Of a DNA stretch of 34,823 bases, positions 10,370-34,823 are shown piece after piece; position 1 is the stretch's first letter, and the number at the start of each line of letters is the position of its first letter. The translations under genes and the position numbers were made by a program. This DNA is from a virus: positions 1 through 34,823 of the IMG/VR virus record IMGVR_UViG_3300035680_000045; one strand, 5' to 3'. Under the pieces are notes generated by a model, which was given only the letters and a program-made list of their open reading frames with translations, made no database searches and was not told where the DNA came from.

Positions 10370-10770
10370 GTCAAATCCGCATGGACAAGTGTTTCGTTGC
10401 CACATGCGGCCCTTGCCTTGCCAAGCCGTGCCGTGCCACACCGAACCGTGCCGTGCCACACCATACCGTGCAAATCCGCACCGATGGAATCTCACCATCT
10501 TGTGCGGCCCATGCCTTGCCCGACCAGACCTCGCCCGGCCAGACCTTGCCAGACCTAACCAGACCGTACCTTGCCCTGCAAATCCGCACCGATGAATATT
10601 TTCGTCATCATGTGCGGCCCTTGCCTTGCCAAGCCCCGCCCTGCCTAGCCGTGCCTAGCCTAGCCCTGCAAATCCGCACCGATAGGCTTCCACTACCTTG
10701 TGCGGCCCATGCCAAACCGTGCCTCGCCCAGCCCTGCCTTGCCTCGCCGGGCCGCGCCGGGCCATGCCTC
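10370..10770. repeat. Array of four covarying hairpins separated by NNNCC pentamer runs
   Basis: Four hairpins lie at 10377-10409, 10476-10507, 10584-10617 and 10674-10705. Units 2-4 share the left arm TGCAAATCCGCACCGAT and the right arm GTGCGGCCC. The inner stems differ but stay mostly paired: GATGG/CCATC, GATGA/TCATC, GATAG/CTACC (one mismatch); unit 1 changes the outer stem to CCGCATG/CATGCGG. The hairpins are separated by 66, 76 and 56 bases made of 11, 13 and 9 pentamers ending in CC, and unit 4 is followed by 12 more. On the minus strand these read (GGNNN)n, a pattern able to form two-tier G-quadruplexes. No gene is supported in this 437-base gap. Confidence 0.85.
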
Positions 10771-10771
10771 G

Positions 10772-13285: not shown

Positions 13286-13340
13286 GTCCTTTTGAATACT
13301 TTTGAAGACTTTTGAAAACTGTTGAAGACTTTTGAATAAC
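13286..13340 (-). promoter_or_regulatory. Tandem TTCAAAAGT repeats in ssDNA-binding protein leader
   Basis: On the minus strand about five near-copies of TTCAAAAGT(C/A), one degenerate (TTCAACAGT), run at a 10-11 base period and end at the AAAGGA ribosome-binding sequence of the gene. The sequence is A-rich and predicted unstructured. It resembles the kind of leader used for autogenous control by T4 gp32. That function is inference. Confidence 0.55.
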
Positions 13341-14577: not shown

Positions 14578-14609
14578 GCTGTTTGTTCGGTAACTTATCG
14601 GTCTAAAAC

Positions 14610-14805
14610 TTAGTCCCAAAGTTAGTCCCAACCTACTTAGTCCCAAACCATCTTGGGACCACTCCCAAACCACTCCCACATTTTGCCAAGTGCCTTATTT
14701 TCTTTAGTCCCAACTTAGTCCCAACTTAGTCCCACGCGACTTAGTCCCAGTGTTGGGGGGTATATATACCCCAACTTGGGAGTTGGGACTAACTATTGGG
14801 ACTGA
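14610..14805. repeat. TTAGTCCCA repeat array (candidate origin or activator sites)
   Basis: Direct copies of TTAGTCCCA start at 14610, 14622, 14637, 14704, 14715, 14726 and 14741; the central three are spaced exactly 11 bases apart. Inverted copies (TGGGACTAA at 14784-14792, TGGGACTGA at 14797-14805) and shorter TTGGGAC pieces flank them. A perfect palindrome with a TATATATA core lies at 14757-14772. The array abuts and slightly enters the 3' end of the replication gene. Together with the promoter and operator to the left, it fills the 333-base gap 14460-14792. Confidence 0.75.
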
Positions 14806-16760
14806 CTTGGGTCAAAGTCGTAAAACGTGCATTTCTTGCCAGATGGGAAGTGTTCTTCCCACTTTGCAAGCACAGAGTTTGCAACCATAAACTTTAGTGC
14901 TCTATCAATCGTGTTCTTGGCATGCCCTTGCTCTTGCAATTCGTCCTGTATTTCGCCCCAAGCTGTTTTCCCACAGGACTTAATATGTGCTTTTATGGCG
15001 ATTTCTGCGCCAGCTCGCCCCTTAACTTGTTTCTCGTCGTTGCTGTCTGATCCGGTCGTTGAATACTCCCACCCAGACTCGCCCTGTCGGCCTTGGATTG
15101 TCGGAAGTTCAAAACGATTCCAACGAGCCTTCACGGATTTTATCGTGATGTTCTGCTCGTCCATCTCATCAGCTTCAAGACGAATCACGTTGTCGCATGT
15201 TCTGCCCATAGACCGGCCCCAGGTCTCGCCCTGGCTGTTCAGGTGGCCAACGAGCACGATAGGGATAGAAAACTCTCTCGCCAGTTCTCTCAATGGAGTT
15301 GCGATCTTGGCCACCTCTTGAGGATCCACCAGTGGTCTTGAGGAAGCGGCCATGAGCGTATCTATAACAACCATCCCAATCTTATAGCGACCACACCAGT
15401 GACGGATCATGGCCAACGTCTGCGGATCGTCGATATTTGTAAAGTTGTATGGGTCGTTCTCAGGTCCAGTGAATATGACGTTGGTGGAGGGTATACCAAA
15501 AGCGACTGCTGTTGTCGCTATCTGGTCCCAGTGGCTATCTGAAGCGACGAATAAAACCTTTGAATCTGGGTCCATCTCGGTTTTTGTGCCATCAGGCCAG
15601 TGTTGATCCAGTGACCAACGTTTGACCAGATCCAAAATCCATCTCGTCTTGCCTGTACCTTCTTTACCCTCAACGAGATGTAAGCCACGATCAACAAACC
15701 ATCCCACGTTCTTTTCGGTATCGCCCCAAAGCCATTTTCGTTCCTTCATCAAAGCTAAGATATGGTCAATATTGGCCGCATCCGGCAAACCTTCGAAAAA
15801 CTCTGTCGGCAATGGCTCAGTCGATATCTGTGGCGGAGCTGCTCCGTTGGCCTTGGCTATCTGGATCAAACTTCCAAACCGAATTTGCTTGTCGCCATCG
15901 ATTCGTTTAAAGGATCTGACTTTGATGGCACATTCTCCATCAATGTGCTTGGCATGGCGAGCTGACCACTCTTCCCAGAGTTCAGCCCCGTCTTCGCCAA
16001 ACTTGTGGGTAAGCGCCATGCCTACCGCAAGCCATTTGTCGTAGTCTCCAAGTTGAGTGTCCAGATATCCTTTAGCGAGCACCATTTTGGCCCACTCAAA
16101 ATCACTGGAAACATTTCCGGCCACAGGAGGAAAATCGACCTTTGGTTTCTCGGGTCGAGTGATTGCCTGTAGGATTGCCTGCTCTGCAGATTCAGGCAGG
16201 GCAATTGGTGCCATCGGAATTGAAACCCGTTTCCCATCGCTCGGAGCACAGGCGACCTGACTCCCAGCGTCAGCCAGGCCAACAAAGATTTCTATCTTAC
16301 CTTTAGATGGAAGTTCGATGGATTTTTTGCCTAAGCGCCCCCATGCCTGAAGGATGGAATCGGTCACCTGAAACCAGACATGGCAACCACCCTCCGTTTT
16401 GACGATCAGAGTTTCTGGCCAGTCGTCAGACCCAAACAGAAGTTGGGCGGACTCCTTCCAAGCATCTGGAAGAAACTTGGTGTCCTTGTTGTATGGGTCG
16501 ATGTCAAACACGACATGACCAACAGGCTTGCACCCAATCCCGACAGGTACTCCATTCTGAAGATATCCGATCAATCGCTGTCGCCACTGATCGGTTGTAA
16601 CATGCTGCCATGGCTCATCCTTGTTGGCCATCGGGCGTTTAATCTTGCCGTGCTTGTCTTCACCGTTGACGACTGGAAGCAAGCCAATAGAAACGAGCGC
16701 CTCGAACGCTGCAAACAAATCGTTGCGAGCGCAGGCGTCAAAGTAATCTGGCCAAGACAT
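14793..16760 (-). CDS. Prim-pol / RepA-like helicase replication protein
   Basis: A 655-residue fusion. The N-terminal archaeo-eukaryotic primase/polymerase domain shows DID in VVFDIDPYN (about residue 85) and the histidine in GGCHVWFQ (about 125). The C-terminal RecA-type ATPase has Walker A EGKEGTGKT (about 365) and Walker B MVVIDT (about 465), as in hexameric RepA/DnaB-like helicases. The last 80 residues look like a winged helix (AWGEIQDELQEQGHAKNTIDRAL), a likely DNA-binding end. With no DNA polymerase in the genome, this protein probably primes and unwinds at a phage origin and recruits the host replisome. Confidence 0.88.
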   Translation of the reverse strand: MSWPDYFDACARNDLFAAFEALVSIGLLPVVNGEDKHGKIKRPMANKDEPWQHVTTDQWRQRLIGYLQNGVPVGIGCKPVGHVVFDIDPYNKDTKFLPDAWKESAQLLFGSDDWPETLIVKTEGGCHVWFQVTDSILQAWGRLGKKSIELPSKGKIEIFVGLADAGSQVACAPSDGKRVSIPMAPIALPESAEQAILQAITRPEKPKVDFPPVAGNVSSDFEWAKMVLAKGYLDTQLGDYDKWLAVGMALTHKFGEDGAELWEEWSARHAKHIDGECAIKVRSFKRIDGDKQIRFGSLIQIAKANGAAPPQISTEPLPTEFFEGLPDAANIDHILALMKERKWLWGDTEKNVGWFVDRGLHLVEGKEGTGKTRWILDLVKRWSLDQHWPDGTKTEMDPDSKVLFVASDSHWDQIATTAVAFGIPSTNVIFTGPENDPYNFTNIDDPQTLAMIRHWCGRYKIGMVVIDTLMAASSRPLVDPQEVAKIATPLRELAREFSIPIVLVGHLNSQGETWGRSMGRTCDNVIRLEADEMDEQNITIKSVKARWNRFELPTIQGRQGESGWEYSTTGSDSNDEKQVKGRAGAEIAIKAHIKSCGKTAWGEIQDELQEQGHAKNTIDRALKFMVANSVLAKWEEHFPSGKKCTFYDFDPSQSQ

Positions 16761-20092: not shown

Positions 20093-20136
20093 GCCCGCGG
20101 TTTACGAGGTGTGGGTTGCGGGCTATTTAATTTTTT
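20093..20136 (+). terminator. Terminator between converging transcription units
   Basis: Stem GCCCGC / GCGGGC followed by TATTTAATTTTTTT on the plus strand. It ends the cargo transcription unit just before the converging stop codon of the distal tail gene at 20136. Confidence 0.7.
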
Positions 20137-21863
20137 TATTCAACCGTCACGTAGGTGTTTGCTGAATCCGTTGATCCGTCAGCGTGATTGACAATACAGG
20201 TCACTGTATAGATTCCTACGCTGGCCCAAGTGTGGTTGATGGCTGTTCCCAGCGTGACAGAGTCAGACGATCCGTCACCCCACGAAATCGCGGCACTACT
20301 GATCCCTGTCGTTTTGCGTGTGCTGTACGCGACTGCTGTAAAAGCAACCCCAGCAGATCCAATGGTGGTGAGTTGGATACCACATGTTGGCAGGATTGAT
20401 GAGATGCGTGATCCAAACGGAAGGCAAAGCATATTTCCTTCATTGGCGTATTCTGCGGCCCCAGTCTCTTCCGTTGGAACGACTGGGTCACCTGAGCCGG
20501 GGTATCCTCCAGCGCCACTGGAGGTCGCCGGCTTCCAAGGTATCTGTTCCGTGAAAGTGATGTAGCCTGATGTTGATCCTGTCGAAACCTGATCAAACTT
20601 CAGGAACTTTGAACCGATGAGCGATCCGCTGGAGAAGAATTCGATATGCACATACTGCCAGGTGTTGGATGCCTGGGTAAATGAAAATGAAATTCCAATA
20701 GAATCGGCAAAACTGGCATCGACATTGAAAAGCGGATCTGGTGGTTCGTGCATGGTCTCAAATACGCCGGCCTGACTGTAAACCACTTCGTCAGCCACTG
20801 GTAGATCATAAGCACCTTTCACGACTCTGTGCGGGTCTGGCAGGCTCCATGTGTTTGGTGATGGTGGCGTTGCCCGTTTGAACCAGATGGAGGCTTTTGC
20901 CTGAATATTGTATCGGTCCATGCGACCAGGGTAATTGTCGCACCACTGCTGCAAGAACCAGTGATGATAACCAGCCAACTGCAATGTTGAACCGTAAGTG
21001 GTTACGCCAGTGGTCGGATCAGTTGAGTACAAGTATGTACCTTGAATTGGCTCGTCTGGATAAGGTGCAAAACCTGCTGCAACCACCCATTCAATATTTC
21101 CACCCCAACGATATTGGCGAGATACGGAATTCTTAAATATGTGGTCGCCGAAATGGGCGTGCCAACCGTTGGTCCTGATTCGGATACCACGTTGGCCATC
21201 AATAATCAAAAGCGTATCTGAGCCTGGCGTAATTTTAACCTTGTTCCCCGCAGGAATCAAAGATCCCAGATTACTCCAGTTCTGAATCGTTGGAGTTTTC
21301 CCGCTCAGTTCAATTGTGCATTTGCTCAGCAATTCCATTTTCATCGTGTGGTAGATCATGTGGTCGGTGCTATCACCGTGAGGTCCATACAAATAACTCA
21401 TCCTGATTGGACCGGCATAGCGATCAAAATTGATTGTCCCTGGCGGACTTCCCACAGGCGTGTAACCGTTGGAAACAAAGTAGTGACCACCAAATTCAGT
21501 CAGGCCCATAAACAATCGTTCGATCCCGTAAAACTTAGGATAGTAAACACCTGGTGCAGTCGGATCTGAATATCCTGTCGGTTTATTGGCCCACCACATG
21601 ACAAAATCCCGCCAGTCAGTTCGTCCGTACACGACGTCCATTTCGTCGTTGGCTGTGGCGTTAATGTCTAATTCGGAAGTTGACGCACTGGCTTGGAAAT
21701 ACCAACCAGAATATCCACGAACCTGATAGGTGTTGCCGTCATCGCCTTTCAGGATGGCTACACGCCAGTCTTGAATATGCTTTAACGGTGTTTTGTCAGG
21801 CACAGAAGGATTGATGTAATAATTTCCGTATGCGTCCACCTGATCAAGATAAACAAACTCCAT
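20136..21863 (-). CDS. Distal tail / adhesion protein with C-terminal PKD domain
   Basis: About 575 residues from ATG 21863 (MEFVYLDQVD). The same frame is open up to 21986 and overlaps the preceding gene at a T9 run; a -1 shift there would fuse both into about 700 residues. The bulk is beta-rich with many Trp, Tyr and Gly. The last 80 residues (AISWGDGSSD...NHTWASVGIYTVTCIV) are a PKD-type immunoglobulin-like fold, common in surface-binding proteins. As the last tail gene it is probably at the tail tip. Confidence 0.75.
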   Translation of the reverse strand: MEFVYLDQVDAYGNYYINPSVPDKTPLKHIQDWRVAILKGDDGNTYQVRGYSGWYFQASASTSELDINATANDEMDVVYGRTDWRDFVMWWANKPTGYSDPTAPGVYYPKFYGIERLFMGLTEFGGHYFVSNGYTPVGSPPGTINFDRYAGPIRMSYLYGPHGDSTDHMIYHTMKMELLSKCTIELSGKTPTIQNWSNLGSLIPAGNKVKITPGSDTLLIIDGQRGIRIRTNGWHAHFGDHIFKNSVSRQYRWGGNIEWVVAAGFAPYPDEPIQGTYLYSTDPTTGVTTYGSTLQLAGYHHWFLQQWCDNYPGRMDRYNIQAKASIWFKRATPPSPNTWSLPDPHRVVKGAYDLPVADEVVYSQAGVFETMHEPPDPLFNVDASFADSIGISFSFTQASNTWQYVHIEFFSSGSLIGSKFLKFDQVSTGSTSGYITFTEQIPWKPATSSGAGGYPGSGDPVVPTEETGAAEYANEGNMLCLPFGSRISSILPTCGIQLTTIGSAGVAFTAVAYSTRKTTGISSAAISWGDGSSDSVTLGTAINHTWASVGIYTVTCIVNHADGSTDSANTYVTVE

Positions 21864-21931
21864 CAATCCACCAAAACCGAATAAGCTGACTGGCCAGCCG
21901 GGGTCGGTGGGAGCTGTGCAAGAATTTGCTC

Positions 21932-22237
21932 TCAAAAAAAAAGCGGTTGGCCGGTGGATTGATCTCGCTTGGCACGATAAACCCATCCAAGCGTGGCGTC
22001 TTGATTGTTTAATTCAAAAGCTGGGTCGTAGCCTGGTCCGCCACTCTGGGTGCTCGACTGGTAACTTCCATCCGTGGCGCGTGTCACCTGAGTCCATGTG
22101 TACTGGCTCACGCCATTGACAACGGTTTTTGCTGTGACTTTGATCAGGAATTCACCATCACTGATCTGCTGAAGTGTCAGACCGTTGGGAGTGACACAGG
22201 CTCGCATGCCAGAGACATTGAGTGATTTGCGTTTCAT
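21932..22237 (-). CDS. Small tail protein; possible upstream half of a frameshift fusion
   Basis: A 101-residue protein ending ATLGWVYRAKRDQSTGQPLFF and stopping inside a run of nine Ts. Reading -1 on the T TTT TTT heptamer continues as LRANSCTAPTDPGW into the 20136 gene without a stop. The chain reads naturally across the joint. Standing alone it is a small beta protein. Not recognised. Confidence 0.65.
   Translation of the reverse strand: MKRKSLNVSGMRACVTPNGLTLQQISDGEFLIKVTAKTVVNGVSQYTWTQVTRATDGSYQSSTQSGGPGYDPAFELNNQDATLGWVYRAKRDQSTGQPLFF
21934..21942 (-). promoter_or_regulatory. T9 slippery run (candidate -1 frameshift site)
   Basis: Nine consecutive Ts on the coding (minus) strand directly at the stop codon of the 21932 gene. 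The phase fits a T TTT TTT -1 slip that joins the two tail genes. Confidence 0.45.
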
Positions 22238-33467: not shown

Positions 33468-34823
33468 TTATGCGTTGGGAAATGCGGTTGTGGGTGGAGT
33501 GAAATTTGCGGTGTATCTTGCGTATTTGGTGATGCGGAGATCGTCTAATTTCCCTAGGAAGTTGCGGTCACCACCGTTGTTTGCAAGATTGTCGCCAATC
33601 ATCAAATTTCTTGTGCTTGATCCGCAATTCCCTGAGTGCGTACCGCTTGCAGCTAGTGAACCGTCGATGTACATAGCAAAAGCACTACCATTGCGAACAA
33701 TAGCAAAGTGATGCCAGTTTCCATCTCTGTAGTCGCCGCTGGACGGAATTAATATCGGGACGCTTCCAGAGAATTCGTTGATCCAAAATGAAGGTCTGAA
33801 CTGGGTAGACGATGCCAGCGCATAGAGCGAAAATGCTCCAGCCGACCAAACATTGTTCTCGTTTGAAACTAAGGTTTTGCCGTATGGACTCCCGCTAGCC
33901 CCTGCTGGAATATTAAACCAGAATTCGATAGTAAAATTGCCCGTGCCGAAGTTGAATCCGCTTGACGCAGGAATCGTTAGCGAAGAGCTGGATGTGCCTG
34001 GAAAATCCCCGGCCTGTCCAAACCCGCTTTTCGCCCCGGTACTTGTGGTGGTCACACTACTCGATGTTACCGTCAGTGCATTTGACGAGTTATCAGTAAA
34101 AGACGTGCCACCTTCAGCCCCATCCATGTGCAGCAGGAGCGATGTGTAATTGTAGTAAGGGTCGGCCACCGTGGATGATGCCGTTGTTGGCAATGCTGCT
34201 GTGGGAGGCGTGAAATTGGAGACGTAGCGAGCGAATCGGGAAATCCTGAAATCGTCTATGTAGCCGTTCACAAACCTTGCATTTTTGGGGTAGTCTGTTC
34301 CAATTAAGGTTGCACCATCGCTAAACGAGCCTGTTGTAGTCCATGTCGAGCCGACTTGCGTACCGTTGATGTACATCTTGACCGACGAGCCTGACCTAGT
34401 AACCGCAACGTGAGTCCACTGGTTAGCAACTACGGTAGGCCCAACAATTCTATTTGCCCCCTGATAAACTACCCATGCTTGCGAAGCACTTGTGCCGATG
34501 ACAAATCCGTTGCCGTTTGGATTGGTTTCGTTTGTGCGGGAGTCGTAAAGAGAGAATGTGCGAACATCCAGAGGATAAATCCAGAACTCAATCGTGAAAT
34601 CGCTAGTCCCAAGCGTGATTGCCGAGCTTGCTGCCGTCAGGTAAGCACTTGTCCCGTTAAAAAAGCCAGACGCACCATACTTAGCCTGAGAGGTCGAAAT
34701 CGTTGCGGATGTTGGCGTAATCGTCAGTGCGTTTAAACTGCTATCCGTGAACGTGGTCGATCCGTTCGTTCCATCCATACTGAGCATCAGCGAAACGGCT
34801 GAATAGTAAGGGTCGCCACCATC
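33468..34823 (-). CDS. LamG/concanavalin A-like lectin-domain protein (start lies across the circular junction)
   Basis: Residues about 23-473 of the protein that begins at 193. Two LamG-type jelly-roll domains in tandem, each opening with LMLSMDG or LLLHMDG followed by TxFTDxSxNALT and containing FTIEFW, and each ending YARY..NFTPPT. The repeat is internal duplication with divergence. LamG domains bind glycans or proteins, so the protein likely adds receptor binding next to the fibre. The complete product is 473 residues. Confidence 0.88.
   Translation of the reverse strand, partial: DGGDPYYSAVSLMLSMDGTNGSTTFTDSSLNALTITPTSATISTSQAKYGASGFFNGTSAYLTAASSAITLGTSDFTIEFWIYPLDVRTFSLYDSRTNETNPNGNGFVIGTSASQAWVVYQGANRIVGPTVVANQWTHVAVTRSGSSVKMYINGTQVGSTWTTTGSFSDGATLIGTDYPKNARFVNGYIDDFRISRFARYVSNFTPPTAALPTTASSTVADPYYNYTSLLLHMDGAEGGTSFTDNSSNALTVTSSSVTTTSTGAKSGFGQAGDFPGTSSSSLTIPASSGFNFGTGNFTIEFWFNIPAGASGSPYGKTLVSNENNVWSAGAFSLYALASSTQFRPSFWINEFSGSVPILIPSSGDYRDGNWHHFAIVRNGSAFAMYIDGSLAASGTHSGNCGSSTRNLMIGDNLANNGGDRNFLGKLDDLRITKYARYTANFTPPTTAFPNA
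34697..34823. repeat. Terminal direct repeat, copy 2 (contig overlap)
   Basis: Exact second copy of bases 1-127. One copy should be removed when the genome is circularised, which leaves 34,696 unique bases. Confidence 0.95.

Follow-up and report, generated by a model that had tools for sequence, protein, structure and literature searches.

A probable VIPR locus with four predicted guide RNAs beside a RAMP protein gene in a temperate tailed phage

Introduction

VIPR systems were first described in a preprint of April 2026, which sorts them into seven types, I-VII. As described there, each comprises a RAMP protein encoded by the phage, together with a vap gene and with vrRNAs in which 9-16 YNNGG repeats precede an invariable, structured 3' tail, pseudoknotted in the SUSP1 clade of type II (PMC13142463, bioRxiv 2026.04.26.720920). 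Their NN pairs are described as reading double-stranded DNA with a one-base skip, the targets taking the form NNxNN and lying mostly within coding sequence, and the resulting complex as repressing competing phages; ribonucleoprotein formation, the skip rule and silencing are shown there for the Escherichia phage SUSP1 and for Pseudomonas fulva, and perturbation of the GGY motif abolishes Vipr silencing in SUSP1 (PMC13142463). VIPR has also been proposed as ancestral to CRISPR effectors, and constitutes a compact, PAM-free and reprogrammable DNA-binding system.

Here we describe a repeat array in a viral DNA stretch of 34,823 nt, hereafter the window. With a probability of roughly 0.94, it belongs to a VIPR locus carried by a temperate tailed phage and specifies four guide RNAs (vrRNAs); their processing and target class are what we infer for this phage, and ribonucleoprotein formation, the skip rule and silencing are carried over from what the preprint reports for SUSP1 and P. 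fulva. The assignment is made because of (i) the homology of the adjacent protein to Vipr, (ii) its RAMP fold, (iii) the YNNGG grammar, (iv) the structure of the tails, (v) the neighbouring vap gene, and (vi) the association of these elements across lineages. A previous sequence-only reading of this DNA had found no named family that matched, a statement no longer true since VIPR matches (PMC13142463).

Results and Discussion

Organization of the array

Read on the minus strand, which also encodes the surrounding genes, the array spans window positions 10372-10771 and starts directly past the TAA of the vipr gene (11362-10772). It comprises four units of ~90-108 nt, each a pentamer run followed by a hairpin ending ...GCGGAUUUG, with lengths of 103, 90, 108 and 99 nt and 13, 10, 14 and 12 pentamers in order from the vipr stop. 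The predicted vrRNA 1 (10771-10669) has its repeats at 10771-10707, abutting that stop codon, and its hairpin tail at 10706-10669; vrRNA 2 (10668-10579) and vrRNA 3 (10578-10471) carry theirs at 10668-10619 and 10578-10509, each with a hairpin tail and with fold z-scores of -4.9 and -3.8, respectively; vrRNA 4 (10470-10372) has repeats at 10470-10411 and a variant tail, CCGCATG...CATGCGG. On the plus strand the same runs appear as CC with a period of five, beginning at 10411, 10509, 10619 and 10707 with 12, 14, 10 and 13 pentamers, and no further run of at least five CC or GG pentamers occurs elsewhere in the window.

The hairpins lie at 10377-10409 (33 nt), 10476-10507 (32 nt), 10584-10617 (34 nt) and 10674-10705 (32 nt), separated by spacers of exactly 66, 76 and 56 nt; the sequence-only reading had its coordinates, arms and spacers right. 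Its total of 45 pentamers rises to 49, because one more run, at 10707-10771, continues past the last hairpin and abuts the stop codon of the adjoining gene. All 49 obey Y-NN-GG, and each unit, with 10-14 repeats of fixed GGY and hypervariable NN, falls within the 9-16 repeats of described vrRNAs.

A pattern scan of viral contigs revealed the same array, in the same place, in 11 further contigs with 3-10 units each; the YNNGG rule is kept in 800 of 806 units of the related arrays, where all 16 NN dinucleotides are in use. The exact hairpin pattern had no match in genome_contigs, nor did a near-identity search of phage records return any. Rfam gave nothing credible in the array at gathering or permissive thresholds, and in 40 related loci it reported just three ordinary tRNAs and no hammerhead ribozymes.

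The Vipr protein and its association with GG-periodic arrays

The gene preceding the array (11362-10775, stop codon 10774-10772, minus strand) encodes a 196-residue protein. Previously set down as a conserved unknown gene beside csrA, it is vipr itself, matching PDB entry 36pp, "SUSP1 Vipr protein", with E=2.3e-29 in phmmer and E=8e-71 with a family profile. It belongs to phrog_4652, whose function is annotated as unknown, and no Pfam family matched it. Its AlphaFold2 (AF2) model (pLDDT 95) finds Csm3/Cas7-type CRISPR RAMP subunits as top PDB matches in Foldseek (E=4e-6, TM about 0.5), as expected for the small single-domain RAMP protein of VIPR. The PDB set covered entries released up to 2026-04-08, 36pp being absent among the matches listed, and the fold match of the predicted model is independent of the sequence homology to 36pp. 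Homologues 33-37% identical are found in Felixounavirus, Pseudomonas, Gordonia and Mycobacterium phages, and the gaps around them also contain GG-period-5 runs and hairpins.

Scans of viral and genome contigs with three sub-alignments of the Vipr family yielded 131 distinct loci, 127 of which have a GG-period-5 tract on the vipr-sense strand within 3 kb. As controls over the same loci, CC with period five occurs in 6, and GG with periods of four, six and seven in 10, 20 and 0, respectively. A vap homologue, detected by iterative HMM, adjoins vipr in 110 of the 131.

In the window the gene following the array (10334-9897, minus strand, 145 residues) is distantly related to vap1, the neighbour gene of SUSP1 vipr, and thereby provides the accessory gene of a VIPR locus by distant homology: profiles of the window-clade family and of the type II family, the latter including the SUSP1-type gene, align with a probability of 86% (E=4.9e-6). 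Its AF2 model (pLDDT 89) shows a helix-strand-strand-helix layout with no significant fold match in the PDB. The preprint describes type II vap as DNA-binding (PMC13142463), and it is from this statement that such a role could be extended to the window protein.

In a maximum-likelihood tree of Vipr, the window groups with loci L052, L200, L191 and L189 (support 100/98), and SUSP1 Vipr sits in a separate 43-row clade (support 99/91) from which the window is absent. The window Vipr is thus placed outside the SUSP1/P. fulva clade of type II and, judged by its sequence, is a new VIPR member whose separate Vipr lineage lies on a well-supported branch away from SUSP1.

At L189, in the clade nearest to the window and on the same contig as L013, an array of ~13 guides extends from about +640 to +1660 relative to vipr; its tails form a mini-hairpin (GGGCC-GNRA-GGCTAG) whose tetraloop is of the GNRA type in nearly all copies (GCAA, GAGA, GTAA, GGAA, GAAA). 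GG-period-5 tracts run on without interruption for about 190-400 nt near the divergent Vipr genes of L106, L108-L110, L179 and L180, and are possibly the arrays that the preprint calls "staggered".

Composition and turnover of the guides

The NN pairs provide a target-free test of the VIPR reading code: if the skipped base falls on the wobble position of coding targets, guides should be composed like codon positions 1-2. In the window clade, the NN usage of guides correlates positively with the phage's own genes at codon positions 1-2 (r=0.68) and negatively at positions 2-3 (r=-0.31) and 3-1 (r=-0.53); the sense 1-2 model wins all of 2000 bootstraps in a likelihood comparison, and positions 1-2 of either strand give the best fit for 42 of 54 guides. 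The same trend is weak across 41 loci of the whole family (mean r 0.22, against at most 0.08 for the other phases). In composition, then, guide dinucleotides resemble codon positions 1-2.

Guides are also exchanged. When 68 guides were compared, runs of at least six identical consecutive NN were shared by 42 pairs from different contigs, where shuffling predicts 0.15 such pairs, and the tail is kept in 18 of 22 full-length guide matches and in just 3 of 20 partial ones, which points to recombination inside the array. Contigs with an identical Vipr protein hold different guides, 57 distinct guides being recovered from 12 contigs. The locus thus adds to VIPR a separate Vipr lineage, this set of guides, and their exchange between related phages.

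An alternative is that of a VIPR relic, in which guides are present and Vipr or the array is inactive in the window phage. The target searches fit it, and weigh against the main reading: exact nine-dinucleotide (18-base NNxNN) cores from one conserved guide family and two window guides had no match in viral_contigs, and all guides, run with skips of 0, 1 and 2 against 3.5 Mb of sequence on both strands and, in a tolerant search, against near-relative contigs, gave no excess over shuffled guides. The vipr reading frame is, however, intact and the repeat grammar perfect, and the occurrence of the same Vipr with different guides in other contigs looks like active turnover. A relic is therefore regarded as improbable, although it is the least improbable of the rival readings.

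The csrA-like neighbour

Directly upstream of vipr lies a csrA-like reading frame (11685-11359, minus strand; Pfam CsrA, 4e-15), a neighbour rather than a demonstrated part of VIPR. Since its CsrA domain covers residues 45-99, the true start is probably internal. Its stop overlaps the vipr ATG in the sequence ATGA, an arrangement that suggests a possible translational coupling of the phage CsrA with Vipr.

This overlap invites a reading of the array as a cis-acting or decoy RNA that titrates the CsrA encoded just upstream. CsrA needs GGA, usually within a hairpin loop. The repeat tracts contain none, because each of the 49 units places a pyrimidine after the preceding GG, and the five GGA of the array are found at the 3' foot of the tails (four) and in a loop (one). 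As the same arrays, moreover, accompany vipr in many phage lineages, the CsrA sponge was rejected and we consider it very unlikely.

Covariation and sense strand of the hairpin tail

The alignment of 30 distinct hairpin copies from 12 related contigs has standard pairs in all 330 pair cells. Double-sided, compensatory changes affect 6 of the 11 pairs and amount to 44 cells, where shuffling would give 9.2; sliding the partner register by 1-3 columns lowers pairing to 24-40%, and RNAalifold, which models nested pairs, returns the same structure unprompted. Deriving the structure from these same 30 sequences inflates the number of paired cells, and does not produce the compensatory changes. Covariation shows that the hairpin tail is a selected RNA structure, and it corresponds to the invariable, structured 3' tail that follows the repeats in VIPR. 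One-sided changes are always G-U in the minus-sense strand and would be A-C on the opposite one; what had been noted as a mismatch in the fourth hairpin is such a G-U pair. These pairs, standard in the sense strand only, favour an RNA transcribed with the operon over a DNA cruciform.

The sequence-only reading had anticipated much of this. Its structured non-coding RNA, with GGNNN on the minus strand, is borne out by the tail covariation and the 49 regular units, and its claim that structure is under selection stands once homologues are added. Two of the outcomes it had named as counting against it, loss of covariation with more homologues and pentamer arrays elsewhere devoid of hairpins, were looked for, and neither occurred.

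It had also entertained a DNA recombination or packaging element. In such a DNA-level reading, which also takes in a degenerate minisatellite, the hairpins would act as cruciforms. Reshuffling of guides and tails between relatives, with the same tail at so few partial guide matches, would suit such an element. Against this, the G-U changes become A-C mismatches in the other strand, the arrays stand beside vipr and vap with GG on the vipr-sense strand at nearly every locus, and fixed Y and GG around free NN is not a product of slippage; the DNA-level proposal thus lacks support and has, in our estimation, very little chance of being correct. The GG pairs are better understood as the constant framework of guide RNAs that serve the neighbouring RAMP protein, which leaves scarcely any room for the G-quadruplex-forming regulatory RNA that the five-base recurrence of GG in the transcribed strand had suggested, given that a quadruplex needs neither a strict five-base period, nor a pyrimidine after every GG, nor an adjoining RAMP protein, and that disturbing GGY abolishes silencing in SUSP1 (PMC13142463).

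Tails in other lineages

At ten loci of actinobacterial phages or a prophage (L060, L062, L066, L067, L070, L072-L075 and L227), the vrRNA tails, located up to ~700 nt upstream of vipr or up to ~1.5 kb downstream of it, are tRNA-like. They consist of an acceptor-type stem of 5-7 bp stacked on a T arm with the loop TTCGANT (GGTTCGANTCC), followed by A, C or G, and have no D or anticodon arms; the 18 copies present 11 different acceptor stems, all paired. ARAGORN called no tRNA in them. Such a tail is a possible RNase P/Z processing signal.

We tentatively propose, while leaning somewhat against it, that the vrRNA tail is a module swapped among VIPR lineages; that the window clade forms a VIPR type of its own, with the array immediately following the vipr stop, ahead of vap, and guides and tails recombining freely; and that the tail in actinophage VIPRs is a tRNA-like acceptor/T-arm minihelix, and their arrays may therefore be cut by host tRNA-processing enzymes. 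The main text of the preprint mentions neither an own-type, swapped-tail placement nor tRNA-like actinophage tails, and tRNA itself is not mentioned there (PMC13142463).

Other features of the window

The window phage also encodes terminase, portal, capsid, integrase and ThyX, and its tail, terminase and capsid matches scatter over phages of many unrelated hosts. Iteron-like repeats of 11-13 bp (TTAGTCCCAAC / AAACTTAGTCCC) at 14606-14807 adjoin a primase-helicase gene (16760-14793, minus strand) and may mark a replication origin. Five 10-bp repeats, CTTTTGAAGA, lie at 13289-13338 just upstream of an SSB-like gene, and large laminin-G-like and PKD-domain proteins are encoded on the minus strand at 33468-34787 and 20136-21986.

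Proposed mechanism

A transcript of the operon csrA - vipr - array - vap - thyX would be the precursor, co-transcription with vipr being suggested by the common strand and by the array abutting the vipr stop. Trimming after each tail would release four vrRNAs of ~100 nt, in each of which 10-14 YNNGG repeats lead into a hairpin tail at the 3' end. By homology with SUSP1, Vipr subunits would cover the repeats by holding the constant GGY, with the two variable bases displayed; these NN pairs would then base-pair with double-stranded DNA, one target base being skipped per repeat (NNxNNx), as SUSP1 homology indicates and guide composition supports. The complex would finally keep genes that belong to competing phages or satellites from being transcribed, in line with the silencing shown elsewhere for SUSP1.

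Comparison with known systems

Compared by description, TIGR-Tas (tandem interspaced guide RNA) resembles the window locus in being a phage-borne guide-RNA array with noncanonical reading, and differs in both protein and array (PMC12045711). With Class 1 CRISPR-Cas, in particular the Csm3/Cas7 backbone of type III, the locus shares the RAMP fold and presumably the periodic coating of RNA by the protein. On the contrary, its array has a five-base period with fixed GGY in place of identical repeats and 30-40-nt spacers; no cas genes were found among the window proteins scanned, and no CRISPR-type identical repeats in the window.

Closest among described systems is VIPR type II, as described for Escherichia phage SUSP1 and a Pseudomonas fulva prophage (PMC13142463), with which the locus shares phage carriage, a Vipr RAMP protein, a vap neighbour, and several units of ~100 nt as YNNGG vrRNAs in which NN is hypervariable and the 3' tail structured. 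It differs in that the array, flanked by vipr and vap, sits right up against the vipr stop, whereas SUSP1 has one vrRNA upstream and three downstream of the genes; in that vipr adjoins csrA, unlike in the SUSP1 and P. fulva systems; and in that its tail is a two-step hairpin unrelated in sequence to their type II tails.
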